The notes under the pieces: model-generated | The model's input: only the letters and a program-made list of their open reading frames with translations | Database searches by the model: none | What the model was told of the DNA's origin: nothing | Translations under genes and position numbers: made by a program | In this document: piece by piece, positions 2 through 15,452 of the stretch | Numbering within the stretch: position 1 is the first letter of the stretch | How the letters are laid out: every line of letters starts with the position of its first letter | Assembly: GCA_019637395.1 (NCBI GenBank) | Contig: JAHBVR010000029.1 | Location: 1 to 60,695 of the forward strand | Length of the DNA: 60,695 nucleotides | Source: Vulcanimicrobiota bacterium | Lineage (GTDB): Bacteria; Vulcanimicrobiota; Xenobia; Xenobiales; JADMJV01 | Reading direction: 5' to 3'

Positions 2-1336
2 TTTAAGGTTCATCTAGAGAATGCGCTGGGGTCCCCCGACGTGACGTTGGACGTCAATGGGGTGGGCGCGAAACCGTTGCGCAAGGAGGATAATGATCCT
101 TTGGATGCGGGGGATTTGCGCGAAGACCAGATCGTCTCGGTTCTTTACGACAGCTCTGGGGGAGGTCGATTCTGTCTGCTGGGGGCCACGGGTTCGGGTT
201 CGCTGAGCGGCACGTTGAATGTCGATCAGGGAGGAACGGGGTCTGACCTGTCCGCCAGTGGCGGGAGCGGCGTGGTTCTGAAGCAGAAGACAGTGGGCGG
301 GAATTTGGTGGCCGAAGCTTTGGTGGCCGCCGATATTCCTGATATCGACATCAGCCAGGTGGAGGGTCTGCAAGAGGAGCTGGATCGCACGGTGCGACTC
401 ATCAGCAGCGCTCCCTCCTACTTGAGCCCCCTTTCGTCTGGTGAGCGCCGAACTCTGATCACGGCTACCAGCAACCATTCGTCCTTGTCCGGTCCCGTCA
501 GCAACCTGTTGAACGGAACGTCCAGCAACGATTTTTACTGGAACAGTGTGGCCATAGCGGGAACCTATGTGCGGTTTGACTTTAAGGCTCCCGTCTTGCT
601 GACCGAGGCCAAATGGCTGCAAAGTACCGCCAGTACTCACGGCAATTGGCAATGGCAAGGGAGCCAGGATGCGAGCACCTGGACCAACATCGGGTCCACC
701 TTTTTGCTAGGAGGGAGTACCAGCCAGACCCTGACGACTTTGTCCGCGAACACTACGGAATACCGCTTTTACCAGCTTGTGGGAGTGTCTGGAACGTGTT
801 CGAGTAGCGCCTACCTCTACGAAGTGCAATTCAAGATCTCGGCAAAGTCTGTTGCAGAAGGGTTGGCCTCGGTTCCGCTCGGTGGTGCCGATGAATTCGC
901 CAGGGGCAACGGGAGTCTCTCGTTCCTGAACGCGGCCGATATGCCGGCCAATCTGCGGCTGATACTTCCCAAAACGGCCTCGCAGACGGTGAATTCCGGC
1001 AATACCGATAAGCTGACCTACAATTTCGCTTCGACCAATGACGGGGCCTTTACGGTTTACTCCAGTGTGCTGACCACGGTAGTGGCTGGCCAGTATCTGT
1101 TCGAGATCCCTTGCTTTGTGTCGGGTGGAACCGATCCATATCACATTTTGATCGCAGTCAATAATACGGTGGTCTACAAAAGCCCGCCGGCGACCACCAT
1201 TGGCCATGCGGTCAAGACGCTCACTTTGGCGGCGGGAAATACCGTGGAGTTTCGACTCAACGCGACCACCGCCAACTGCCTTCTCGATACCACCGATGGC
1301 TATATGAGCACAGCGGTGGTCACTCGTCTCAATTAA
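2..1336 (+). CDS. tail-fibre-like / adhesin-like protein, 5' end beyond window
   Basis: The frame is open to the left edge, so the gene starts outside the window. The first visible residues repeat the last half of the module found three times in the gene at 1593 (FKxxxxNxGxxxLxV, then LxAGDxxxxQIVxVxY, then GGRF), so the two proteins share architecture. A Gly/Ser linker and a short helix (SQVEGLQEELDRTVRL) follow. Next is a discoidin-like (F5/8 type C) beta-sandwich, recognisable by YVRFDF, ASTWTNIG and YRFYQL, and then a C-terminal jelly-roll of C1q type (LTYNFASTNDGAFTV to the stop). Such stacks are typical of phage tail fibres and surface adhesins that bind sugars. I infer receptor binding. 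No signal peptide can be judged because the start is missing. Confidence 0.7.
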   Translation, partial: FKVHLENALGSPDVTLDVNGVGAKPLRKEDNDPLDAGDLREDQIVSVLYDSSGGGRFCLLGATGSGSLSGTLNVDQGGTGSDLSASGGSGVVLKQKTVGGNLVAEALVAADIPDIDISQVEGLQEELDRTVRLISSAPSYLSPLSSGERRTLITATSNHSSLSGPVSNLLNGTSSNDFYWNSVAIAGTYVRFDFKAPVLLTEAKWLQSTASTHGNWQWQGSQDASTWTNIGSTFLLGGSTSQTLTTLSANTTEYRFYQLVGVSGTCSSSAYLYEVQFKISAKSVAEGLASVPLGGADEFARGNGSLSFLNAADMPANLRLILPKTASQTVNSGNTDKLTYNFASTNDGAFTVYSSVLTTVVAGQYLFEIPCFVSGGTDPYHILIAVNNTVVYKSPPATTIGHAVKTLTLAAGNTVEFRLNATTANCLLDTTDGYMSTAVVTRLN

Positions 1337-1533: not shown

Positions 1534-1592
1534 TAAATTTCCAAAAATCAGGGGCTAGCATTGCTATTGCCTCTTTTAGAAAGGTGAAAGAA

Positions 1593-3533
1593 ATGTCCAC
1601 TCCATTAGAGGATGATATGGTCGCTCCGGGCGATCTCATCGAAGCAATCCATATCAGCCAGTTGTTTCCGATTATCGAGGCACTGGAAGAGAATCAAACG
1701 AACTACCGTGAGGATGTCGGCCTGGCCGATGCCTACAAGGTAGATTTTTCGGGCGCGGGTAACGCGAACGAGATCAATGCCTATCAAGCGGGTCAGCAAG
1801 TGGTGTTCAAGGCGGCCCATGCCAATACGGGCGCCTCGACTCTGCAGGTGGCCGGGCCGGCCGGCGATTTGTCCGCCCTACCGCTGACCAAGAACGGCGG
1901 GGAGGACCTCGAGGCCGGCGATATTCAAGCGGGCCAAATGGTGCTGGCCATCTATAACGATGAGGGCTCGGGGCGCTTTGATGCTCTCGGGGTTCTGACC
2001 GGTGGCGACGCCGGCGACGGCAGCGAGTTCTTTCGGGAAGACGATGGAGCCGCCAATGCTTATCAGGTGGATGCCACCGGCATGGGTTCCAATCCTTTCG
2101 TGATCGAGGCCTATGCGCCCGGTCAGTTGGTGGTGTTCAAGGCGGCCCACGCCAATACGGGGGCTTCTACCCTTCAGGTGGTGGCTCCGGGCGGCGCCCT
2201 GTCGGCCAAGGCCCTCACCAAATTCGGCAATACGGTGCTGGAGGCCGGAGATATCCAGGCCAACCAGATCGTGATGGCTGTCTACAACGATACCGGCAGC
2301 GGTCGTTTTGAGATGATGGACGCGCCGCCGACGCTCGAGCCACCGGAGCCACCGGAGTCACCAGAGCCGGAAGATGGCACCGGATTCTATCGAGAGGATG
2401 ATGGATACTCCGATACCTATGAGGTTGACTGTAGCGGATGGGGCTCCAACCCGAACGTGATTTCAGCCTATGAGACGGGACAGTTGATTCTCTTCAGGGC
2501 CGGGTCCAGCAACACAGGCGCGTGCACTTTGGAGGTCTTCGGTCCCGGTGGAGGGTTGGGTTCCAAGGAGCTCACCAAGTTTGGCAGCTCGCCTTTGGAT
2601 GCGGGGGATATCCAGGCCGATCAGATCGTGATGGCTGTCTACAACGATACCGGCGACGGTCGCTTTGAAATGATGGAAGCACGGGCCGCTGGAAGTGGCG
2701 GAGCTGGTGCCTGGCTCTACGGGGACGGGATGGATGGAGATGAGCTCATCGATTCCAACACCGATCTGTGGGAGCACAAGTATTATCGCAATCTCACCAT
2801 CGATCCGGGCGTGTTCGTGTGCACAAACGGTTTCAAAGTTCACGTGAGCGGGACGTTGACCAACAACGGCCTCATTCATAACAACGGTACGGATGGGGAG
2901 GATAGTGTGGGCTCGACTCCAGGCTGGGCCGGACATGGCCGCAACTACGGACAGTTGGCCTGGGAAGGCCACTGGGGCGGAACTGGCAGTCTGCAGGAGG
3001 GCGACACGGTTTACTACGTCGACGAGCAAGCCTATTTTGCCCGGGGGGGTGACGGGGGCGATGGGAGCTACGGTGGTGGCGGCTCGGGGGATGGCGGCAA
3101 TGTTTTCGGGGGGGATCGTTTCTTCATGTCGAGTTCTGCCTTCTTAAGCGGGCTCTACGATGGTGATGCTGCCTGGCATGGGGCCCGCACGATCGGCGGC
3201 GGTATGGGCGGTGGTGGAGGCACCGGAAACGATGATGATGCCGCTGGCGGGTCCGGCGGAGGAAGCGGAGGCATCCTGTGGATTGCCGCTCGTGCCCTGG
3301 CGGGCGACGGTGAGCTTCAGGCCGTTGGCGGAAGTGGCGGCGCAGCTGGTGGAGCGGATGCCGGTGGCGGCGGAGGTGGTGGTGGTGGAATCATCTACTT
3401 GCTGACCGAGGCCACGGAATCTCCGTACAGCTACAACGTCGATGGTGGTATCGGCGGCGCCGGGGGCGGCGGCTCCGGTACCGATGGAGGCGATGGCGAG
3501 ATGGGCCTCTACGTCTTTCGCGGCGGGATGTAA
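1593..3533 (+). CDS. repeat-module fibre protein with glycine-rich C-terminus
   Basis: 646 residues from an ATG preceded by AAAGGTG (an in-frame GTG at 1584 is the alternative). Three copies of a roughly 100-residue module are visible (about 38-140, 147-245 and 265-365). Each has YREDDG, a Val-Asp strand, QxVxFKAAHANTGASTL, LTKxG, LEAGDIQAxQxVxAVYND and SGRFxMM. A Pro/Glu linker separates copies 2 and 3. Residues about 390-470 look like a beta-helix-type start. The last 170 residues are extremely glycine-rich (GGGGG runs), as in the polyglycine-helix receptor-binding domains of some phage adhesins. No signal peptide is seen. The next gene begins two bases after the stop, so expression is coupled to the Fe-S scaffold and radical SAM genes. 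Role inferred: surface fibre or adhesin, and possibly a modification target. Confidence 0.7.
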   Translation: MSTPLEDDMVAPGDLIEAIHISQLFPIIEALEENQTNYREDVGLADAYKVDFSGAGNANEINAYQAGQQVVFKAAHANTGASTLQVAGPAGDLSALPLTKNGGEDLEAGDIQAGQMVLAIYNDEGSGRFDALGVLTGGDAGDGSEFFREDDGAANAYQVDATGMGSNPFVIEAYAPGQLVVFKAAHANTGASTLQVVAPGGALSAKALTKFGNTVLEAGDIQANQIVMAVYNDTGSGRFEMMDAPPTLEPPEPPESPEPEDGTGFYREDDGYSDTYEVDCSGWGSNPNVISAYETGQLILFRAGSSNTGACTLEVFGPGGGLGSKELTKFGSSPLDAGDIQADQIVMAVYNDTGDGRFEMMEARAAGSGGAGAWLYGDGMDGDELIDSNTDLWEHKYYRNLTIDPGVFVCTNGFKVHVSGTLTNNGLIHNNGTDGEDSVGSTPGWAGHGRNYGQLAWEGHWGGTGSLQEGDTVYYVDEQAYFARGGDGGDGSYGGGGSGDGGNVFGGDRFFMSSSAFLSGLYDGDAAWHGARTIGGGMGGGGGTGNDDDAAGGSGGGSGGILWIAARALAGDGELQAVGGSGGAAGGADAGGGGGGGGGIIYLLTEATESPYSYNVDGGIGGAGGGGSGTDGGDGEMGLYVFRGGM

Positions 3534-3535
3534 CC

Positions 3536-3892
3536 GTGTTTTCCCCGCAAACCCGCCGCTATTTTGAGCAGGCCCAGGGATATGGCCAGTTGGACCATCC
3601 CACCCATGAGAGCGTGGTGGGCAAGCGGGAGCACGGCCACTTCTTTCAACTACAGCTAGAAACCGACGCGAACGGCGTCGTGACCAACCTGGCTTTCGAT
3701 TGTCCGCGCTGCGTGCCCGCCATTGCATGTGGAGGCTATCTCTACTTGCGTCTGGTGAGGCGTGGCTCGGACCAGACGATCACGGTGGAGCAGGTCGTCG
3801 ACGCCCTCGGCGGCCTGCCCCCGCAACGTTGCTTCTACGCCTGGATGGCGGTGGAGGCGTTCAACACTTTGAGAGGAGTGGGTGAGCGATGA
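3536..3892 (+). CDS. IscU/NifU-like Fe-S scaffold, degenerate
   Basis: 118 residues from a GTG two bases after the previous stop. It ends in a 4-base overlap (ATGA) with the radical SAM gene. The order of elements follows the IscU/NifU N-terminal fold: a polar start, then HGHFFQLQLETD (the strand that in IscU carries GAPxCGD), then VTNLAFDCPRCVPAIACGG (IscU: FKTYGCGSAIASS), then LPPQRCFYAWMAVEAF (IscU: PPVKxHCSxLAxxAI). Cysteines are at 56, 59, 65 and 99. The first cluster-ligand Cys of IscU is missing and His stands near that place. Known IscU proteins assemble Fe-S clusters on three Cys plus one other ligand. Being translationally coupled to an enzyme that should need several 4Fe-4S clusters, it is probably a dedicated cluster donor or accessory protein. 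Confidence 0.65.
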   Translation: MFSPQTRRYFEQAQGYGQLDHPTHESVVGKREHGHFFQLQLETDANGVVTNLAFDCPRCVPAIACGGYLYLRLVRRGSDQTITVEQVVDALGGLPPQRCFYAWMAVEAFNTLRGVGER

Positions 3893-5064
3893 TTTTATCC
3901 TTGCCGATTCAACAGGAGCCCAAAAGATACGCTCCTGTGCATACTTTGATGCTGTACTTGACGGAAGAATGTAATCTGCGCTGCACTTACTGCTTTGTCA
4001 AAAAGGAACCCAAGTTCATGACCCGGGAGACGGCGTTGCGCACCATCGATTGGCTATTGCAACGCAACATCTCGGGCGGCGAATACGAGCTGCTGGTCAA
4101 TTTCTTCGGCGGGGAGCCCTTCCTGGCGGTGGATTTGATGCAGGAAGTGGTGGACTATGGGCGGCTGGTGCGGCCCAATGTCTACAAGACTTTCAAGTTC
4201 GGGGCCACCACCAACGGCACACTGGCCAACTCGCGGGTGGAAAAGGTGATTCGCGAGGGCGAGCTGGCCTTGATGGTCAGTCTGGACGGCGGGCCCGGAG
4301 CCAGTCGGCTGAGACCGATGGTTTCTGGTCGCGACTCGTATTCGCTGGTGCGCAAGAACCTGCCCAAGCTAGCCGAGTGGGCGCGCTTGTGCACGGCTCG
4401 CGTCACCTTTACTCCGGACAACCTGGAGCTACTCAAGAATGTGCGCGACGTGCTGGACGTGGCGCCGGTAAGGGTGGCGCTCAGTCCGGTGGTGGAGGCG
4501 GATTGGAGCGGCTCGCAGGAGGCGCTGGAGGAGGCGCATCAGGAGCTGGGCGACTGGTTCGCGGCCGAGGTCCGGGCGGGACGGCGGCCCCCTCTGGAGG
4601 TCACCTGGGAGCTTCTCAGGGACTATCGGGAGAGGCTGGTTTGTCAGAGACGTCCGGCCCGGACCTGTCCTGTGGGAGAGGGTCTGATGGCCGTCGACAG
4701 CGCGGGCAACGTGTTGCCCTGCCATCGTTTTCTGCACCGACGCCAGGACTTGCTCGGCGGTGTGGAGGCGGGGGAGTTGCCGGCGGAGCGTTGGCGCTTT
4801 GCGCACCTGACGCGGGCCGAGATTCCCGACTGCCAGGACTGTATCGCTCGCACCGTTTGCGGCGGCGGTTGCCGGGCGGTGGCATTGGATGGCGGCTATG
4901 GGCTGGAGGGCGTTCATCCCAATCACTGCCTGCTGATGCAATCCCAGATGCGCCTGGTGGCGCGACTCTACGAGGAGCTGCGGATGGAAGAGAACTTCTG
5001 TCGGGCGCTGGCTCAGGTCCACTCAGATACCCATTACCAAGAACTCTATCAATTAGGAAGTTAG
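3889..5064 (+). CDS. radical SAM/SPASM peptide-modifying enzyme
   Basis: 391 residues. The N-terminal radical SAM barrel has the CxxxCxxC cluster motif (CNLRCTYC, about residues 28-35), the GGEPF SAM-binding motif (about 73-77) and SLDG. The C-terminal SPASM/twitch region has a further set of Cys: TCPVGEGL, VLPCHRF, DCQDC, CGGGC and NHC, about 260-350. This is the layout of enzymes that bind auxiliary 4Fe-4S clusters and modify peptides or proteins (anSME, PqqE and RiPP-maturase relatives). It sits directly after an IscU-like gene with a 4-base overlap and 13 bases before a Gly/Cys-rich short gene that is the natural substrate candidate; the Gly-rich fibre upstream is a second one. The modification made cannot be told from sequence. 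Confidence 0.88.
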   Translation: MILSLPIQQEPKRYAPVHTLMLYLTEECNLRCTYCFVKKEPKFMTRETALRTIDWLLQRNISGGEYELLVNFFGGEPFLAVDLMQEVVDYGRLVRPNVYKTFKFGATTNGTLANSRVEKVIREGELALMVSLDGGPGASRLRPMVSGRDSYSLVRKNLPKLAEWARLCTARVTFTPDNLELLKNVRDVLDVAPVRVALSPVVEADWSGSQEALEEAHQELGDWFAAEVRAGRRPPLEVTWELLRDYRERLVCQRRPARTCPVGEGLMAVDSAGNVLPCHRFLHRRQDLLGGVEAGELPAERWRFAHLTRAEIPDCQDCIARTVCGGGCRAVALDGGYGLEGVHPNHCLLMQSQMRLVARLYEELRMEENFCRALAQVHSDTHYQELYQLGS

Positions 5065-5077
5065 GAGCACTTTAGCG

Positions 5078-5605
5078 ATGAGACTATGGCCACCCACTTT
5101 TACCAACGGAATTCACAACTCTCTCCATGGCAATGAGATTCCCCATGCGGAAGGGGCCAATTTGAACAAGGCTCTGGCGCTGCTGGAGACCGAGGGAGGC
5201 CTTCTTGGCGGCGGTCCGAGCGCTGATCAGGGCGCCGGCGGCGGCGGCGTGAGCGGCGGCGGCGGCAACGGGGCTCGCGCTCCGGGACCGGCACCGTCAG
5301 GAGGCGGGGGAGCCGGCCCGGGCAGTAGCGGCGGTGTCGATGGTGGCGCGGGAACGCCCGGCGGACGCAGCACCACCGGCACTTGTGGCAAAACGACCGA
5401 TCCGCCTGCACCCGATCCTGAAGATCCGCTGAATCGCGGGGTCTCAGGAGACCGGCTCAATCTCGGCGGCAACGGCGGCACCAACATCCACTATTCGGGC
5501 ACCATGCCGGCGGAGCTTAACCAGACCTGTAACGGTACGGGCAAAGGTACGGATGCCCAAAAGGGCTGCCCGCCCTGCGAAATTATTGGAGGTTTCTTCT
5601 TATGA
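5078..5605 (+). CDS. Gly/Cys-rich small protein, candidate radical SAM substrate
   Basis: 175 residues. The first about 40 residues are not Gly-rich and could act as a leader (NGIHNSLHGNEIPHAEGAN, then LNKALALLETEGG). Residues about 40-100 are almost all Gly, Ala, Ser and Pro. The C-terminal part has ordered-looking stretches and four Cys (STTGTCGKT, LNQTCNGTG, GCPPC) and ends in the hydrophobic tail EIIGGFFL. It starts 13 bases after the radical SAM stop, and its stop overlaps the RHS start (ATGA, 5602-5605), so all three should be co-translated. I know no family for it. It could be a ribosomally made, modified precursor, a structural spacer for the RHS or fibre complex, or a secretion adaptor. 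The leader-like N-terminus and Cys-containing tail favour the first. Confidence 0.6.
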   Translation: MRLWPPTFTNGIHNSLHGNEIPHAEGANLNKALALLETEGGLLGGGPSADQGAGGGGVSGGGGNGARAPGPAPSGGGGAGPGSSGGVDGGAGTPGGRSTTGTCGKTTDPPAPDPEDPLNRGVSGDRLNLGGNGGTNIHYSGTMPAELNQTCNGTGKGTDAQKGCPPCEIIGGFFL

Positions 5606-8600
5606 ATCACATGCTATTCCCCCAACCCATTCGCCTGGATGGCTTTCAAACGATTTTGGGCAGCTGCTCAGACGTGGAAATGCTCCGGGTCAGCATCGGT
5701 AACCTGGTGCGCCGCTACACGGTCGCTCAGGTGGCCAGTGTCGGTCCGGCGCTCAAGTTTGAGCTGACTCACAATGCTCGCGAGAGCTTCTCGGGAACCT
5801 TGGGACCTAGCTGGAGGCACAACTGGATGGCTCATCTGGAGTTCGGCTCTTCGCTGGTGACTTATGAGGACGGCTACGGCAGGCGTCATAACTTCACGGC
5901 ATCCGGCAGCGACTGGGTCTTAAATGAGGGTAACTCGCTGTTTCTGCGCCAAGCTCTGACCGAGGTCTCGGGCCAGTGGCACCTGAAAGGCTTTGCCAAC
6001 GGCGAGGACATGGTCTTTGATTCGGGCGGTAAGCTTTTGCAGGTGGTGGACTCGCACGGGCAGGCGCTGACCTTGCACTACACCAGTTCGCTGCTGACAG
6101 CGGTGGAAGAGCCGACGGGGCGACAGATCACTCTGGCCTATAGCTCCGGTCTGTTGACCAGTATAACCGATCCCCGCGGTCACGTAACCAGCTTTGTCTA
6201 TGGGGCGGACTCCAAGCTGGCTTCGATCATCGGGCCGGAAGGTTGCATGCTTTCCTATGAATACGCCAGCGGTGCGACCAATGGTCGGATCGTGGCGCGG
6301 ACGGATGCGCGAAACAACCGGTATACCTATAGCTACGATGGCAGCGGTCGACTGCTGACAGTGACCAATCCAGCTTCCAAGACGATAAGCTACGCCTATG
6401 GTACCGTGCAGGAGCGCCTGTCTTCGCCTCACTTCTCGGACTTTAAAAATCTGAGTCGAGTGATCTTGACCGATGCCGAGGCGAAAAACTGGGAATATCG
6501 GTTTGATGACGATGGGAATTTGTGGCGAATTCTTGATCCACTGACCCATAATCGGCGATTCTACTGGAGCAACCAGCAGGAGCTGCTGTATGTGGCCGAG
6601 GGCTATGGCGTGAATCAGGCGAATGAACTGGGCCCACAGGATAGTCCCCACAATCGTTTTAACCGATTTATGTATGATGGACTCGGAAATCAGACGGCCC
6701 ATACCGATCCTAACGGTATAATTACGCAGCGCGAGTATGACGCGGAGCACCGTTTGATCACGGTGACTCCCGCGCGAGCCACCAATCAGATCGGAGGCAA
6801 CTGGTTTGACCATTTCGGCAAGGACGGCTTCGTCATGTGCTCGGGCCTGGACGATAGCAGTGACCTGGTGCAGCTGCCTTCCTACATTGATAGCGCCGGC
6901 ATTCTGCCGGGGGAGGAGGCCGATGGCAGCAATGCCTTTGTGCGCTCGCTGCCGAACCTGGAGAGTCATCGCATCGACACGCGCGCGCCCTGGATTCGCT
7001 TGCCGGGCAGTCCGCCCCGCGATACCTATCGGCGTTCGCTGGGCATGTGGAAGACCGAAGAGGAAAGCAAGTCCTTTACCTTCCGTATCCCGGTGCAGGT
7101 GACGGGGGCGTTCAACCTGTCTTTCTACACCCACGCGGCTGACTATCCGTTTGCCAGCGCCAGCACACCGGGCTACGAAAAGACCTATTCCGGCGTTTTC
7201 GGGCGGGACGTAGAAATTTTGGTGACCGACTTCGATCCCCTTACGGGGGAGCCGCGCCGGCAGGTCTTTCGTCAGCCCAACAATGCGGCCGGCTGCTGGA
7301 TTAGCTTCGGCGTCTATGCGGAGGCGGAGAGCTCCATTCGCGTGGTGGTGCGCACCCGCGCCGACATCAGCGAAACCGAATTCCCCTGTATCAACATGAT
7401 CGCTTTTGATCCCATCGAGCAACGCACCACCAACCTGTATTACACGGGAGTAGACCTGACTTCGGTGGTCGATCCGCTCCATCAGGTGACTTCCTTTGAA
7501 TACAACCTGGACGGCACTTTGAAGAAAGTGACGGATGCCAAGAACCGTGATACCGAGTTCTTCTATGAAGATGCGGCTAAGAATCTGACCAGGATTGTGG
7601 ACGCCGCCTCGGGCGAGGTGGTGCTCGGCTACGACGCCAACGGCAACGTGACCCGTTCGGAAGACCAGGATACGCGGGTCAGCACGATGGTTTACGATGC
7701 CAAGAACCGTCTGATTCAGATAACGGATCCGCTGAACCACTCTACTCACTTCCGTTTCGACGGGGCGGGCAATCTGGTGTCGGTGCGGGATGCCAGGGGC
7801 AGGCAGACTTTTCTGGCTTACGACAATCTCAATCGTCTGACGGGCGTTTCCAATGCGGCCGGCCAGGAGACTTTCTTCGCCTACAATGGCAGCGGAAGGC
7901 TGATTAAAGTGACCGATGCCCTGGGGCGCGAGACCGAATTTTCCTACGATGCGGCGGGACGTTTGGTGCAGACCGAAATGGCTGACGGACAAAAGGTTCT
8001 GTATGCCCTGAATGCCGTCAATCGACTGGTTTCCATCACCGGGCCGAATGCGAGTCAGGCCGACTGGGACCAGATCGACCTGACCGGCGCGCTGGATGTT
8101 CTAAATGATGGAAGCGTCGAGGCTCCGGTGATGACCTGGCAGCATACGGATGAGTATGACTACGGAATCAATCCCCTTTATGCCCGCACGAACTTGGAGG
8201 CGCACAGTGGAACCTATAGTCTACCCGTGGTCACGGGCAAAGGCCGATATCTCAATGATATCACCACCTATGCCGGGGGACGCTATGTGGCCAAGGCTTG
8301 GGCCAAGAAGGCAGGGGGCGGAGCTCCGACGGTGGCGGCGAGCATTGCCGCCGAGGTGCGCAACTTCGAGGCCACTTTGGAGACGCAGACGGAACCTGGA
8401 CAGGCTACGGCGGTGGATACCGATTGGACAGAACTGAAGCCTCAGATGGTGCAAATTCCGGGCGACACCCTGGCGGTGCGCACCCAGCCGCCTTTGCGCA
8501 AGCTGAAGTTTCTGGTGGAGAAGACGTCGCCCTCCGACGAGCCCAATACAGCCTATCTGGACGATGCCAGTCTGCATTTGATCAATACCTGCCTGGAATA

Positions 8601-11600
8601 CGATGGGGTGAATCTACGCGAGGTGGGGACCCCCGATGGAGCCCGTTTTCGCCGGGAGTTTGACCGGGTGGGGCGGTTGTGCCGCCTGTCCGACCCGCAA
8701 GGGCGGGTGATTTACCTGAACTACGATAGTCTGGACCGGGTCGTTTCGGTGAGGGACTCGCTGGGACTGACTCTGGCTTACGCGTATGATGAGACCGGGC
8801 AGTTGGTTTCCTTTACCGACGCCAAGAATCAGGTCATGACGTTCGCCTATGACGACTTGGATCGGTTGCTGACCATCACTTATCCCGACAGTAGCACCGA
8901 GGAGTTCGAATATTCGGCGGCCGGTGATCTGCTGAAATATACCGACAATCTGGCTCAGGAGAGGTCTTTTGACTATGACTTCGGGCACCGTTTGACGGGG
9001 GTAACCTATCCGAATTTGGACAGGCTGGTACTGGCCTACGATGAGGTCAATAACCTGGTGTCGCGCACCGAGCGCAACGGCGATGTGGAGAGCTATTCCT
9101 ACGATAAGCTGAATCGGGTTACGCGCTGCAAGTTTACGCCAGACAGCGGTTCTGACTCGAGCGGCTGGGACCTGACTTCCCGTTATGATGAGGTGGGCAA
9201 TCGCACCAGGTTGGCCAACACGGGGGGCGTTCGCTATGACACGGGGGCGCTCTACGGCACGGCTCACTACGGGCAGAATACACCCATCTGGTCGGTGCCC
9301 GAGGAGGGCTTTGATGAGATGAACCGGTTGGTGGAGTTTCAGGATAGCGAGGAAAACAGTACCACTTTCGGCTACGATCTGGAAGGACGGCGCACTTCGG
9401 TCCGCTGCCCCAATGGTACTCTGACGCAAGCCACCTATGATATCGTGGGCAAGCTTTTGCAGCTGCGCACCAGCAAGGAGGAAGAGGAACTGCTGGAGCT
9501 CAACTACGACTACAATCTGGCCGGTGATCGGCTGGCCCAGCAGAGCGAGAAAGCAAGCTGCACTTATCATCTGGACAAGTCCGGGCGATTGGTGGAGGAA
9601 ACCATCAACCGTTGGGTGACCGGCCAGGCCGACCACCTGGCCCAGGGAATCTTGCAGTCTTGCCGGTTGGATTCTGCCAACGCGCGAGTCCAGTTGCTGG
9701 ACCTGGAGGACACCTTCGAGACCCTGAACCTGGACCGCTGGCGCCCGAGCATGGTGGTGGCTCCCGTGGCGTTAGAACCTCGTTTGCTGGGCAACGAGAT
9801 GCGGGTGAACGAAGGCCTTCACATGGTCTATCCGTCTACCTGGTCGGCTTTCCAGTCGGCCTACATTCCGGATGTGGCCTGGTATGGAGCCGGTATGGGA
9901 CCCAAACTTCGCTGTCGCACGGGCCATATGAGCAACGCGACGCAGGAACTGGTGTTGCGTCGCCCCCTGGTCGGGGATTTCGACTTGGTGCTGGAATGGG
10001 ATGGATTTGAATATCCCGAGGGGATCTTGACAGACCCCATGAAAGAGGAATATCCGGAATACCAGTATCTCGGCGCCTTCTTGGAGAATACAGCCGGCCA
10101 GATGATTCACCTCCAGCGCCGTTTCTATTGGGCATACAGCACCAACAATTACTATAATTGGAATGACCTGGGAGCATCCGGTTCGCCGCCTGCCTCAGGC
10201 TCAGGCGGGAAGTTTCGCCTGGCCCGCGTCGGCTCGACGGTGAAACTCTATTTCTGGGACGAGGGGGAGGGGGATTGGGAAATGTGCGGTACCGGCCGGG
10301 CATTTCCCGGAGACCTGGTGCTGAAGATTCGGGGATACTGTCAGCTAGGCTGTATGAATTACCGCATCCTCTCCCTGAGCCATCTGGGCGTGAACCCCGT
10401 GCGGTTTCCGCTGGAAGGCAGCTACGAAAGCGTCCTCTATGACGCCGGCCGGACGGTGCAATGGCAGCGCCTGGCCTGGGCGGAGGAGCTGGAGACGGCC
10501 ACCGACGTGAAATTCCAACTGGCCTTTTCCGAGAACCCGGCCGGACCTTGGGCTTATATCGGTCCGGACGGCACGGCCGGGACCTTCTTCAGTTCGCCGG
10601 CGGGAGAGGTCCTGGATGAGACCCCGGATTTCGCGGGCCGCTACGCCCGCTTCAAGGCGCTTTTGAGCAGCGACGGCCTGGCTACGCCCAAATTCGGTGA
10701 GGTTCATCTCTCGTTTTGGAAGGCAGGAATGTTGGCCAGCGAGGTGCGAAATTACCGGTATGACGAAGCCGGGAACATCGAGAGGGTGACCACCGTGACC
10801 GACGCCGGTTCGACGACGGACGAGCGGACCTACAACGACCTGAACCAGCTCACGGAGCAGGTGGTGGGCGGCGACACCTGGGAATTTTCCTACGATGACA
10901 ATGGAAACATGACCGAGAAGAGCAACGGCATCGAAACCTGGGCCTACGTCTGGAGCGATGAGAACCGCCTGGTTCAGGTGAACGGCACCAGCAGCCTGGC
11001 CGGATTCGGCATGGCCCGCTTCGGAGGCGGCCGCTTTGGCGGCAACCCGGGGAGTGTGACAATCGACTACACCTACGATTCCATGGGCCGCATGCTGACT
11101 CGTAATGATGGTGCCAATTTGACCACTTTTGTTTGGGACCATTGGGACATGATTCGCGAGGTCACTGGTGAGTCTGAGACGGTTTACCACATTCCACAGG
11201 GGCAGATTCTGAGCTTTGTGCGGGATGGGGTAACTTACCAGGCGCATAGCGACGCCCTGGGCAGCATTCGTATGATTACGGATGAGGCTGGGGAAGTGGT
11301 GGCCAGATACGAGTATTCTGGATTCGGGGAAGCCATTTCGGTGACCGAAGATTCAGCGCTCATTGACTTCCCGATGCGGTTTGTCGGGAGTCTCGGTGTG
11401 AGGTTTGACGAGCTGAGCGGCCTAATTTATATGCGTCAACGTTGGTATGATAAGGGGCTAGCGCGATTCTTGTCCAAAGACCCTATCGGATTGCAGGGTT
11501 CGTTTAACTTGTATGCGTACGCAGAGAATGACCCGGCCAGCATTTCTGACCCGTCCGGGCTGCGGCCTCCAGATTTAGGCCTAATGAGGTCTAAACCTCG

Positions 11601-12210
11601 GAGTTTGACAGCAGCGGAGGCAACTGAGCTCTTGAGCATGTTTAAAAGAATTGGGTGTGCCATGCAAATTCCTCCGGAAATGCTGATGGCAATATGGAGG
11701 ACGGAAGGACAGCACTTTATGGATGACGGACTGCCGCCCAATGGTTGGACCTCAAGGGAACTTATGAAGTGGGGGGCTAATATAGCTTTCTCTGATGGCG
11801 CAAGTATCGGTTTCATGGGCGTTTCCCCTACAACAGCTGCTTACTTAGACGGTCAGCTTTCCATACCAGCCGGAAAAAGCTGGCCAGACTTCACTAGTTC
11901 TGAGCGGCGGTCTATGTTCAAGGCGCAACTTACCCCTGCGCAACGAGTCGACACTATCAGTAACTTGGAAAACCCATTTATAAGCACACTCTATGCCGCG
12001 AAGAACATCAACTACCTCAAGGATCAGTTGTTTCCAGGGAAGACAAAAGCGCAGATGACTGACGATGACTGGGGAACTATTGGCGACTGGTATAACATGG
12101 GGGCTAGCGCCCCAGCGCCAGGAAAGCCGCATGGAACAAATGGGTTGAACGTCATCAAATACATGCGTATGGCTCGGCAGAAGAAGCCCGAATATTGCGA
12201 ATGCCGCTAG
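5602..12210 (+). CDS. RHS-repeat polymorphic toxin, lysozyme-like C-terminus
   Basis: 2202 residues, giant RHS/YD-repeat protein. YD repeats (GxxxxxxYDxxGRL type) occupy most of the length and would build a hollow beta shell. Three non-repeat insertions look like carbohydrate-binding or LamG-like beta-sandwiches: about 410-605, 830-995 and 1363-1600. The RHS core ends in FLSKDPIGLQG, NLYAYAENDP and then DPSGL (about 1983-1987), the usual autocleavage boundary. The remaining about 215 residues are a separate domain (see the feature at 11563). No signal peptide and no PAAR domain are seen, so the export route is unknown. It overlaps the Gly/Cys-rich gene by 4 bases and is followed after 35 bases by a membrane-anchored candidate immunity gene. 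RHS proteins of this kind typically deliver toxins between bacteria. Confidence 0.9.
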   Translation: MNHMLFPQPIRLDGFQTILGSCSDVEMLRVSIGNLVRRYTVAQVASVGPALKFELTHNARESFSGTLGPSWRHNWMAHLEFGSSLVTYEDGYGRRHNFTASGSDWVLNEGNSLFLRQALTEVSGQWHLKGFANGEDMVFDSGGKLLQVVDSHGQALTLHYTSSLLTAVEEPTGRQITLAYSSGLLTSITDPRGHVTSFVYGADSKLASIIGPEGCMLSYEYASGATNGRIVARTDARNNRYTYSYDGSGRLLTVTNPASKTISYAYGTVQERLSSPHFSDFKNLSRVILTDAEAKNWEYRFDDDGNLWRILDPLTHNRRFYWSNQQELLYVAEGYGVNQANELGPQDSPHNRFNRFMYDGLGNQTAHTDPNGIITQREYDAEHRLITVTPARATNQIGGNWFDHFGKDGFVMCSGLDDSSDLVQLPSYIDSAGILPGEEADGSNAFVRSLPNLESHRIDTRAPWIRLPGSPPRDTYRRSLGMWKTEEESKSFTFRIPVQVTGAFNLSFYTHAADYPFASASTPGYEKTYSGVFGRDVEILVTDFDPLTGEPRRQVFRQPNNAAGCWISFGVYAEAESSIRVVVRTRADISETEFPCINMIAFDPIEQRTTNLYYTGVDLTSVVDPLHQVTSFEYNLDGTLKKVTDAKNRDTEFFYEDAAKNLTRIVDAASGEVVLGYDANGNVTRSEDQDTRVSTMVYDAKNRLIQITDPLNHSTHFRFDGAGNLVSVRDARGRQTFLAYDNLNRLTGVSNAAGQETFFAYNGSGRLIKVTDALGRETEFSYDAAGRLVQTEMADGQKVLYALNAVNRLVSITGPNASQADWDQIDLTGALDVLNDGSVEAPVMTWQHTDEYDYGINPLYARTNLEAHSGTYSLPVVTGKGRYLNDITTYAGGRYVAKAWAKKAGGGAPTVAASIAAEVRNFEATLETQTEPGQATAVDTDWTELKPQMVQIPGDTLAVRTQPPLRKLKFLVEKTSPSDEPNTAYLDDASLHLINTCLEYDGVNLREVGTPDGARFRREFDRVGRLCRLSDPQGRVIYLNYDSLDRVVSVRDSLGLTLAYAYDETGQLVSFTDAKNQVMTFAYDDLDRLLTITYPDSSTEEFEYSAAGDLLKYTDNLAQERSFDYDFGHRLTGVTYPNLDRLVLAYDEVNNLVSRTERNGDVESYSYDKLNRVTRCKFTPDSGSDSSGWDLTSRYDEVGNRTRLANTGGVRYDTGALYGTAHYGQNTPIWSVPEEGFDEMNRLVEFQDSEENSTTFGYDLEGRRTSVRCPNGTLTQATYDIVGKLLQLRTSKEEEELLELNYDYNLAGDRLAQQSEKASCTYHLDKSGRLVEETINRWVTGQADHLAQGILQSCRLDSANARVQLLDLEDTFETLNLDRWRPSMVVAPVALEPRLLGNEMRVNEGLHMVYPSTWSAFQSAYIPDVAWYGAGMGPKLRCRTGHMSNATQELVLRRPLVGDFDLVLEWDGFEYPEGILTDPMKEEYPEYQYLGAFLENTAGQMIHLQRRFYWAYSTNNYYNWNDLGASGSPPASGSGGKFRLARVGSTVKLYFWDEGEGDWEMCGTGRAFPGDLVLKIRGYCQLGCMNYRILSLSHLGVNPVRFPLEGSYESVLYDAGRTVQWQRLAWAEELETATDVKFQLAFSENPAGPWAYIGPDGTAGTFFSSPAGEVLDETPDFAGRYARFKALLSSDGLATPKFGEVHLSFWKAGMLASEVRNYRYDEAGNIERVTTVTDAGSTTDERTYNDLNQLTEQVVGGDTWEFSYDDNGNMTEKSNGIETWAYVWSDENRLVQVNGTSSLAGFGMARFGGGRFGGNPGSVTIDYTYDSMGRMLTRNDGANLTTFVWDHWDMIREVTGESETVYHIPQGQILSFVRDGVTYQAHSDALGSIRMITDEAGEVVARYEYSGFGEAISVTEDSALIDFPMRFVGSLGVRFDELSGLIYMRQRWYDKGLARFLSKDPIGLQGSFNLYAYAENDPASISDPSGLRPPDLGLMRSKPRSLTAAEATELLSMFKRIGCAMQIPPEMLMAIWRTEGQHFMDDGLPPNGWTSRELMKWGANIAFSDGASIGFMGVSPTTAAYLDGQLSIPAGKSWPDFTSSERRSMFKAQLTPAQRVDTISNLENPFISTLYAAKNINYLKDQLFPGKTKAQMTDDDWGTIGDWYNMGASAPAPGKPHGTNGLNVIKYMRMARQKKPEYCECR
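11563..12207 (+). other. RHS toxin tip: lysozyme/SLT-like domain
   Basis: This is the segment of the RHS protein after DPSGL. Its pattern follows lytic transglycosylases and lysozyme-like hydrolases: IPPEMLMAIWRTEG (helix with a candidate catalytic Glu), GASIGFMGVSPTTAAYLDG (equivalent to SxGLMQxxPxTA), ENPFISTLYAAKNINYL (equivalent to dPxxNixxGaxYL), and WGTIGDWYNMGAS (equivalent to AxAAYNxG). Peptidoglycan would be the substrate in a target cell's periplasm. Codon use is visibly less GC-rich than in the RHS core upstream, as is usual for exchangeable toxin tips. The fold assignment is mine from motif order only. Confidence 0.6.
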
Positions 12211-12245
12211 TCTACCTTGCTGTTGCTGAATGGAGGCCTTAGTCT

Positions 12246-12848
12246 ATGAAACCACGACCGCTGGTATGGGTTTCGCTTCTCACGATATTGCTGGCAAGCG
12301 TGGGGATTTGGTGGTTAAAGGGAGATCCGAAGCAACCTGTTTATGACTGGCGAGAAGTCACGGTCGCTGGTGTTCGAGCAGGATCAAGTCCCAGCCAAGT
12401 AGAGAAGCTGATGGGCAAACCTCTGGAGCGGAAGGGAAAAGAAGGGTCGGTCCAGGTGCGTTACAAGGAATGCTGGCTGAGCATCTCCGACGGTCTCATT
12501 ACGGTAACCGGGAATCAGATTGAACGCCACGGTCACACCATCTTGAAAATACAGAACACCTTCGAGCTGGTTGGTGTCAGGGAGCCAACATCTCTTGATC
12601 ATCCGGTGAACAGAGAAGGGGTCATCGAGTTGTTTGGGGAGCCAGATTCAGACCAACCCAGTTCCGACCGTTCTAGAGGGGATGGTGACAGAGAAATGTC
12701 TTATGGGTCTAAGGCAACGGTTGATTCTTTCAGCTCTCAACCAGAACCCCCTCACGAGCTTATTGTTTCTCTGGACGGCAGCGGACTGGTTGAGAGTTTC
12801 TCTGTTAGGTGGAAGCTACCGCCACCACAAAGTCCATCAACCTCGTAG
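12246..12848 (+). CDS. membrane-anchored candidate immunity protein
   Basis: 200 residues from an ATG preceded by GGAGG (TGGAGGCC). An N-terminal hydrophobic segment (VSLLTILLASVGIWWL) is an uncleaved anchor or signal, putting the rest outside the cytoplasm. The body has two motifs of the kind seen in SmpA/BamE-like small domains: VRAGSSPSQVEKLMGKP and, later, REGVIELFGEP. The C-terminal third is Ser/Pro-rich and probably disordered. It lies 35 bases after the RHS toxin and has the same lower-GC composition as the toxin tip. A peptidoglycan-attacking toxin would need an immunity protein in the periplasm, which fits. Immunity is inferred from position and topology. No immunity family is recognised. 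Confidence 0.55.
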   Translation: MKPRPLVWVSLLTILLASVGIWWLKGDPKQPVYDWREVTVAGVRAGSSPSQVEKLMGKPLERKGKEGSVQVRYKECWLSISDGLITVTGNQIERHGHTILKIQNTFELVGVREPTSLDHPVNREGVIELFGEPDSDQPSSDRSRGDGDREMSYGSKATVDSFSSQPEPPHELIVSLDGSGLVESFSVRWKLPPPQSPSTS

Positions 12849-13194: not shown

Positions 13195-13790
13195 CTATGG
13201 TCGTGCATGTTTCGCGCGACGGGGCTTAGGTTGCTTCGGTAGAAAGCGGGCGACTGCAGTCTTGAGCGATCTGGGGTTCCCTTGGAAACGGTTGAAGCGG
13301 CGGGATACTTTCGCGTGTAGCAGCTCCAGAGTCGGGAAATGTCGGTTGTGCGTGGTCGTTCTCTTCGTTAACCTCCAGACGTGTTCAGCGGCGTTGAGAT
13401 CCGGCGAATACGCGAGGCAAGAAGCAGAATTCAATTTCCGCCTGATTGTGGCATCCACCCATTCGCGTACGAATTTCGCGTGATGGTAACGCGCATTGTC
13501 GAGGATCAGGAACACTTTACGACCCTTGTTATGGTGGACCACGCGCTTCACAAACCGCAGGAAGCTGACCCCATTAAACTTCTCAGAAAACTAGAAATGA
13601 AAACGAGGCCGCTCTTCAACGCTAACCGCTCCAAAGGCTTTGATGGACCTTCGGCAAGGTTCACTTTTTACGACTGTTCCTGTCCCTCGGAGCGCCCAGG
13701 TTCGGGTTCTCGAGCCGGATTGCTGGAAGACACACTCGTCTTGGAAAAAAAACAACTCCGCCTTCCTTTCGGGACCGCCGGAGAATCGCA
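13195..13790 (-). pseudogene. IS630-type transposase remnant with in-frame stop
   Basis: Minus-strand DDE catalytic region of an IS630-family transposase. The first Asp lies in FFFQDECVF (about 13740), the second in VFLILDNARYHHA, and the final Glu region in YSPDLNAAEHVW, all in the right order and one reading frame. An amber codon at 13591-13593 splits the frame between RFHF and FSEKFNG. The N-terminal helix-turn-helix is absent, so it is a fragment. Its left part merges with the 3' end of a kinase-like gene, which suggests that insertion or deletion cut both. It cannot make active transposase. Confidence 0.8.
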
Positions 13791-14492: not shown

Positions 14493-15452
14493 TCAGCGAA
14501 AACTACCATACCCCGAGGCTGGTTGGAAGATTGCATGGTTATGATAGCCCGGCCACACTTCGGCGCGGGACTCTTGGAAGTCGATAATGACAGAAGCATG
14601 TTCAATCTTGGCTTCCTTTTTTGAAGGACAATCCGTGGCGTGAGTTAGCTGGGCGACCAGAAAGCGACCATCGCTCGACCAAGCAGGCTTGCACGCATAG
14701 CTGCTTTTGCGCTCGCCTACGGTAACTAGCGGGCCTGTAACCCACGCAAGGCGAGTCAAATCCGTGCCGTCAAGGTTGACGCGCCAGAGTTCATAGTCTC
14801 CATTCAGAAAGGCCACAGACTGGCCGTCGGGGCTGAAGCTGGGGGTTGCCGCTTCCGAGGCTGAACTCAGGAGAGTGAACTCAGGCTCCGAGAACAGTCT
14901 CAGGCAGCCCTCAGCAAATGCAATTCTCTGGCCATCCGGCGAAATCGCAAAATCCACTGGACAGTCAGAAATCAATGTTCTTTCCGACCCTTCCGACCAG
15001 TCGAGTAAGATGAGTTTCTCCTTCATCCAAAAGATGGCCCTGTTGGCTGACAGGCTGGCATCGAGCGTGAAGAACTCGCCCTTAAACAGGGTTCGCTCCA
15101 AGCCTTCGGGTTCGCACAGGACTAGCCGGCCGCCAGCCCTGAAAAGCAGCCTGCCGGTTCGCGCGCAGGACTGAAGGAGCCACATGATGCGCTCGCGCCC
15201 CTCCCAGAGCTTGATCTTTCCATCTCCGTTGTGCTGGAGAGCAAGAACTTGATTGACGTTGCCGTAGTAAACCCACTCTCCATCAGGTGACCACGCGAGC
15301 GGACAGTTGGAACTCTGCCACACGATGTAAAGTTGCCGGGACTCCTGGCCGGCGTTCCGGGTCCAGACTCCGTCGTTCGCGTATGCGATGGGGGGATGCT
15401 CTACCGGGCCGGCCAGCAACCGGAAATCAAAGGCAATTGATATCGGTGCCAC
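14493..15452 (-). CDS. TolB/PD40-type beta-propeller protein
   Basis: 319 residues. Repeated blades have the PD40 signature: LAWSPDGEWVYY, FAISPDGQRIAFAEG, PSFSPDGQSVAFLNG and PAWSSDGRFLVAQ. The number of blades fits one complete propeller. No clear signal peptide is seen; the N-terminus IAFDFRLLAGP may be trimmed relative to the true gene, since the upstream region is short. Propellers of this kind bind proteins or small ligands. It precedes the pseudokinase on the same strand, so the pair may be a split version of kinase-plus-propeller proteins. Composition is less GC-rich than in the genes to its right. Confidence 0.7.
   Translation of the reverse strand: MAPISIAFDFRLLAGPVEHPPIAYANDGVWTRNAGQESRQLYIVWQSSNCPLAWSPDGEWVYYGNVNQVLALQHNGDGKIKLWEGRERIMWLLQSCARTGRLLFRAGGRLVLCEPEGLERTLFKGEFFTLDASLSANRAIFWMKEKLILLDWSEGSERTLISDCPVDFAISPDGQRIAFAEGCLRLFSEPEFTLLSSASEAATPSFSPDGQSVAFLNGDYELWRVNLDGTDLTRLAWVTGPLVTVGERKSSYACKPAWSSDGRFLVAQLTHATDCPSKKEAKIEHASVIIDFQESRAEVWPGYHNHAIFQPASGYGSFR

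Follow-up and report, generated by a model that had tools for sequence, protein, structure and literature searches.

The window analysed here, a stretch of 60,695 nucleotides, is one contig (JAHBVR010000029.1) of the 7.66 Mb genome of a Vulcanimicrobiota bacterium. It carries an RHS polymorphic toxin gene that is preceded by a conserved cassette and followed by a candidate immunity gene, with the following features:

3536..3892, forward strand: NifU_N-like protein of 118 aa (Pfam PF01592, E 8.6e-6), conserved with the cassette
3889..5064, forward strand: radical SAM/SPASM protein of 391 aa, most like peptide maturases (the NCBIfam PapB-type model matches with E 2.4e-64, short of its cut-off)
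5078..5605, forward strand: Gly-rich protein of 175 aa, which overlaps the RHS start codon and holds an equal position before RHS at loci L170, L171 and L214
5602..12210, forward strand: RHS polymorphic toxin gene, 2202 aa, with the shell at residues 1-1987 and the tip at residues 1988-2202
11314..11562, forward strand: Rhs-associated core, the end of the shell (profile match)
11533-11562, forward strand: PxxxxDPxGL cleavage motif PASISDPSGL, the last residue of which is 1987
11563..12210, forward strand: toxin tip, 215 aa (residues 1988-2202), an orphan sequence, mostly helical in a low-confidence model, with GH23-like ordered motifs
12232-12236, forward strand: GGAGG ribosome site of the P0002 gene, within the 35 nt between the tip end and this gene
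12246..12848, forward strand: candidate immunity gene (product P0002), 200 aa, with an N-terminal membrane anchor and tandem BamE/BLIP-like domains, as modelled
13195-13551, reverse strand: transposase-like fragment, probably a remnant, in a GC-poor stretch beyond the immunity gene

The boundaries that the original prediction had drawn for the RHS reading frame, its tip and the next reading frame proved right. RHS/YD repeats, an Rhs-associated core and a PxxxxDPxGL motif with a predicted aspartate dyad, the features of RHS membership, are all present in the 2202-aa protein. The RHS_repeat profile (Pfam PF05593) matched it in 18 stretches (E 2.1e-104), and the Rhs_assc_core was found at residues 1905-1987 (E 3.2e-19; TIGR03696 69.2 bits versus a cut-off of 32.5). 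Two aspartates of the core, D1960 and D1983, spaced by 23, would by analogy constitute the counterpart of the D1324/D1346 dyad of RhsA. The PxxxxDPxGL motif has been described as the site where RHS cocoons sever their C-terminal toxin (PMC8765631), and self-cleavage of the window protein is accordingly predicted from this motif to occur after DPSGL-1987. Scans with Pfam and NCBIfam revealed no PAAR, signal peptide or WXG delivery element in the protein. Such an element is missing from some RHS toxins, and its absence therefore still allows membership among RHS polymorphic toxins. A contractile sheath as the delivery machine was considered and rejected, as the profile search found no phage-type sheath protein (PF04984, Phage_sheath_1) in the source genome. 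The window protein shares its repeats, associated core and PxxxxDPxGL motif with RhsA, Tse15 and Serratia Rhs (PMC8765631, PMC11461821, PMC10539506; catalogue PMC3482391), along with the variable tip, the adjoining immunity gene and the exchange of tips on a conserved shell. It differs from them in lacking PAAR or a signal peptide in our scans and in the NifU-like, radical SAM/SPASM and Gly-rich genes that precede its shell.

A change of base composition after DPSGL had been claimed from the sequence, and our analysis bears this out with regard to the level, though not to the exact place, of the change. The GC content falls from 0.580 in the shell to 0.506 in the tip, and 0 of 1771 shell stretches of 648 nt were as low, but the fall starts about 500 nt before DPSGL (0.532 in the last 500 nt of the core), with no sharp step at the motif itself. 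The next gene, at 0.522, is likewise poorer in GC than the shell, as had been stated for both elements, and GC3 drops from 0.712 in the shell to 0.542 in the tip and 0.527 in the next gene. Farther downstream, the GC content stays at 0.54-0.56. A low-GC tip or next gene was also found at several further RHS loci within the genus, e.g., L032, L035 and L044, as is expected of modules gained separately from the shell.

Comparison of related RHS loci for tip exchange, which had been proposed as a check, gave a positive result. Among the 16 RHS core matches of the source genome, L170 and L171 are complete cassettes whose shells agree with each other at about 75% and with the window shell at about 40%, the similarity running through nearly every block as far as residue 2000. 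Past residue ~2000, the three proteins have no real similarity, and the gene that follows encodes a 103-aa protein without family at L170 and a DUF4288 protein (Pfam E 2.4e-10) at L171. Tip and next gene have been swapped together on the conserved RHS shell between L170 and L171. Because of the core and its PxxxxDPxGL motif, this exchange and the joint low GC of tip and next gene, we consider it very probable that the two form a polymorphic toxin/immunity module. The predicted pairing of a toxin tip with a cognate exported immunity gene is thus backed by the sister loci and, in addition, by the proposed-immunity class to which the product of the next gene is assigned below.

P0002 is predicted to be anchored and to face the periplasm, in agreement with the original prediction. 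A single N-terminal hydrophobic helix (modelled at residues 5-24) is followed by a globular domain, and the periplasmic orientation is suggested by MKPRP ahead of the helix. When P0002 alone was compared with Pfam BamE, it reached 16.0 bits, below the gathering cut-off of 23.2; distant exported relatives occur in the genus, and the one at L168 passes this cut-off. A leave-out HMM, for which 18 BamE-like proteins from the phylum were used and RHS-linked members were excluded, matched P0002 with E 2.8e-11. The family profile reached BamE structures with E 8.7e-6 and BLIP with E ~1e-3. P0002 is placed by this profile relation in the BamE/BLIP-like superfamily. BLIP is a tandem inhibitor of beta-lactamase, and its repeat is related to BamE. 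Contrary to BLIP and BamE/SmpA, P0002 is anchored by an N-terminal helix without lipobox, and its target is not beta-lactamase.

The AlphaFold2 model of P0002, computed with 20 relatives (pLDDT 84.3, pTM 0.74), contains two helix-plus-strand units, the second repeat being barely visible by sequence. Among the 50 PDB matches listed by Foldseek, BtiO (9uu1) was the sole one with a probability above 0.9, none to BamE being that high; the match (probability 0.99, E 0.086, TM 0.46 by target) covers 74 columns only. BtiO of Bacteroides fragilis is a T6SS immunity protein. Matches of P0002 to a 584-aa ORF family (L003, L004, L031) were dismissed as chance, the ORF being a large unrelated protein.

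A 2025 study (PMC12419801) put forward fast-evolving BamE-like proteins with a membrane anchor as the most widespread immunity proteins against lipocone toxins and others that act in the periplasm. P0002 resembles these proteins in being fast-evolving, membrane-anchored, BamE-like and adjoined to a polymorphic toxin; it differs in its tandem BLIP-like form and in a partner tip that is not recognised as a lipocone, and the loci compared here differ further in including cytosolic members (L054, L133). We hold with good confidence that P0002 is a BamE/BLIP-like immunity protein.

The leave-out BamE-like profile also matched genes located directly after the tips of other RHS genes:

L172, 7521-7973: exported, E 3.5e-16, next to a CHAT-like tip (CHAT match E 0.0087)
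L173, 653-1162: weak match, E 0.005
L054, 703-1107: no signal peptide, E 2.9e-7
L133, 4720-5181, in another bacterium: no signal peptide, E 2.5e-7, next to a papain-like tip

Weaker matches after RHS tips were seen at L034 and L114. The tips at L172 (7973-8455) and L173 (133-681), each with an exported BamE-like protein next to it, contain a His/Cys pair like that of CHAT/caspase-type peptidases.

In RHS loci, BamE/BLIP-like proteins seem to provide a general scaffold for immunity, in exported or cytosolic form. An alternative reading is that the tip works inside the target's cytosol and that the exported BamE-like gene encodes an ordinary envelope protein, adjoining by chance and not involved in immunity. 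Exported BamE-like proteins are indeed widespread in the phylum, and most of those viewed lie away from RHS genes. We nevertheless regard a chance neighbour as quite improbable: several RHS genes (L172, L173, L054, L133) have a BamE-like gene immediately behind them, the P0002 gene begins 35 nt after the tip with a similarly low GC content, and no close copy of it was found elsewhere in 148 genomes of the phylum.

Conservation of the next gene beside unrelated tips had been named as an observation that would speak against the pairing. The P0002 gene itself was not found with other tips, whereas its fold class does follow CHAT-like and papain-like ones. The immunity reading of P0002 is unweakened by this. 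Since BamE-like genes follow unrelated tips, however, an exported neighbour gives no independent evidence for a wall-cutting tip, which is also a warning that such a neighbour does not reveal the target of a toxin; periplasmic anchoring indicates where P0002 would work, and its likeness to BamE is silent on the activity of the tip.

The tip had no match in the family libraries and no related Pfam match up to E 10; weak Pfam matches to Zn_ribbon_9 and MPAB_Lcp were rejected as chance. Searches of viral contigs, genome contigs, phages and plasmids gave chance-level matches only, and about 1,350 genomes (149 of the own phylum and about 400 of each of three other phyla) yielded no homolog. Nor was there any related tip among at least 79 RHS loci from many phyla on genome contigs fetched by the RHS core. 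By these searches the tip is classed as an orphan sequence. AlphaFold2 on the single tip sequence without homologs yielded an all-helical model of untrustworthy arrangement (pLDDT 45.9, pTM 0.32), with which Foldseek found no match. The overall design of the locus, an RHS polymorphic toxin with its immunity protein, is already known, and the warhead is the part without detectable relatives.

The lysozyme-like pattern described for the tip was examined by a motif-order test, in which five ungapped SLT blocks from eight SLT proteins of the source genome were placed in fixed order with free spacing. The motifs assigned in the tip are as follows:

11668..11715, forward strand: motif A IPPEMLMAIWRTEGQH, gapless alignment to the SLT ES block
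11704-11706, forward strand: candidate catalytic glutamate E48 of the tip (E2035), within motif A, putative function
11791..11847, forward strand: motif B SDGASIGFMGVSPTTAAYL, counterpart of SLT GAxGLMQLMPxTA, the strongest block (score 17.4)
11974..12030, forward strand: motif C PFISTLYAAKNINYLKDQL, counterpart of the SLT N(I/V)xxGxxYL helix (block score 6.6)
12076..12114, forward strand: motif D TIGDWYNMGASAP, counterpart of SLT AAYNAGPG, with Y177 and N178 of the tip (block score 2.1)

With a score of 32.8, the tip exceeded all of the 2083 + 2044 unrelated protein windows, all 2044 reversed windows and all 3000 shuffles, which corresponds to p ~0.0005-0.005 (about 2,000 windows) or, by Gumbel extreme-value fit, 0.004-0.005. 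Without the strongest block (B, GLMQ), 2.9% of windows score as well as the tip. The block alignment places GASIGFMGVSPTTAAYL of the tip on SLT GAxGLMQLMPxTA, with the tip pattern G-M-P-TA, and DWYNMG falls on SLT AAYNAG. The tip departs from the SLT consensus in that its glutamate precedes G, not S, and G stands in place of the GLMQ glutamine. In the whole-profile SLT tests (local HMM and semi-global PSSM), the tip scored ordinarily, similar to many unrelated proteins and not significantly, and SLT homology by these two methods was rejected.

The part of the lysozyme-like claim that found support is the order of the motifs, which outscored all unrelated windows; family assignment did not, as neither a family match, nor homologs, nor a raised SLT profile score was obtained in these searches. 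The order of GH23 motifs in the tip appears to be more than chance, yet it is no proof of fold. Relative to the GH23 lytic transglycosylases (Slt/MltC/G-type lysozyme, Pfam SLT PF01464), compared by sequence motifs alone, the tip seems to share the five-motif order and the positions of the catalytic Glu and of YN, and differs by the missing significant profile score, by EG versus ES and GFMG versus GLMQ, and by longer insertions. Because the SLT profile test failed, we leave the tip outside the GH23 family, although it may work like a GH23 enzyme; a wall-cutting, GH23-like tip is the reading we moderately favour.

The same data could be explained by a toxin that acts in the periplasm with a different helical fold, such as a lipocone-type lipid-head-group enzyme or another envelope enzyme, with the GH23 motif order arising by chance and P0002 still serving as the immunity protein. 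The all-helical (low-confidence) AlphaFold2 prediction, the non-significant SLT profile tests and the tie of membrane-anchored BamE-like immunity to lipocone and other lipid-head-group toxins (PMC12419801) are consistent with such a toxin. It is considered unlikely in view of the ordered GH23 motifs that outscore all unrelated windows, of a lipocone signature (His, Glu and Asp on successive helices) that is not evident by eye in a tip with two histidines only, H51 and H189, and of the lack of any lipocone family match for the tip in Pfam.

Still less probable, in our estimation remotely so, is a tip that is a degraded or inactive remnant. The locus adjoins a broken transposase, the fragment at 13195-13551 downstream of the P0002 gene, and lies near the contig end, and there are no conserved tip homologs to show selection; on the other side stand the open 2202-aa frame, the intact cleavage motif, the intact downstream gene with a good ribosome site, and the candidate catalytic residues of the tip, which are in place.

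The best explanation of the locus as a whole, to which we assign a probability of roughly 60%, is an RHS toxin/immunity pair in which a GH23-like wall-cutting tip is plugged by the anchored BamE/BLIP-like P0002. The RHS shell would most likely enclose the tip and sever it after DPSGL-1987 by an aspartyl autoprotease, as the motif suggests. The freed 215-aa tip is probably a very divergent enzyme of the GH23/lysozyme superfamily which, once delivered to a rival, would cleave the glycan strands of peptidoglycan in its periplasm, with E48 (E2035) as the putative catalytic acid. P0002, by its modelled fold and anchor a tandem BamE/BLIP-like protein that is attached to the inner membrane and faces the periplasm, may protect the producer and its kin by binding the tip and plugging it, as BLIP plugs beta-lactamase. 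Tip and immunity gene travel together as a low-GC module onto the conserved shell, as the locus comparison shows. As an idea, a lysozyme-superfamily warhead with cognate immunity is shared with Tse3-Tsi3 (PMC3792639), the WHIX effectors (PMC12135965) and Tox-Glucosaminidase (PMC3482391); contrary to these systems, to which no sequence relation of the tip was found, the window uses an RHS shell instead of a WHIX or free effector and an immunity protein that is, as far as seen, from another family.

If this explanation is true, an orphan family of wall-cutting warheads joins the RHS toxins in a little-studied phylum. It would also back the 2025 proposal of BamE-like proteins as a widespread immunity scaffold and extend it to cytosolic proteins and to tandem BLIP-like forms whose neighbouring tips are CHAT-like or papain-like.

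The upstream cassette may be more novel than the toxin/immunity pair. NifU_N-like, radical SAM/SPASM (SPASM match of the 391-aa protein 42.9 bits, above the cut-off of 27) and substrate-like Gly-rich protein genes stand in the same order directly before RHS genes at four loci, three of them in the source genome and at least one in a sister genome:

window, 3536-5605
L170, 14287-16428
L171, 14782-16913
L214 (sister genome), ~4300-6371

Our literature search revealed no paper linking radical SAM with Rhs polymorphic toxins. The recurrence of the cassette before RHS genes suggests a role for a radical-SAM-modified protein in the loading or delivery of RHS toxins. That such a protein helps to load or deliver them, and that tandem BamE/BLIP-like proteins are a general plug-type immunity that serves tips of unrelated kinds in the periplasm as well as in the cytosol, is a tentative and rather doubtful proposal.

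Phage tail-fibre-like proteins were observed before the cassette, joined in the sister genome by a Phage_holin_6_1 domain protein (Pfam E 3.5e-7); the genes concerned lie in the window (41-1336 and 1584-3533) and at L170 (16788-18581), L214 (2001-4286) and L216 (1262-2185). These neighbours suggest a phage-tail-like element as the carrier or the origin of the RHS cassettes. In two genomes of the genus, BamE-like genes also have homologous beta-propeller-like proteins (GPVDHPPIAYA..., CPLAWSPDGEWVYY) nearby:

window, 14493-15452, reverse strand: beta-propeller-like protein
L180, 117-1073: beta-propeller-like protein
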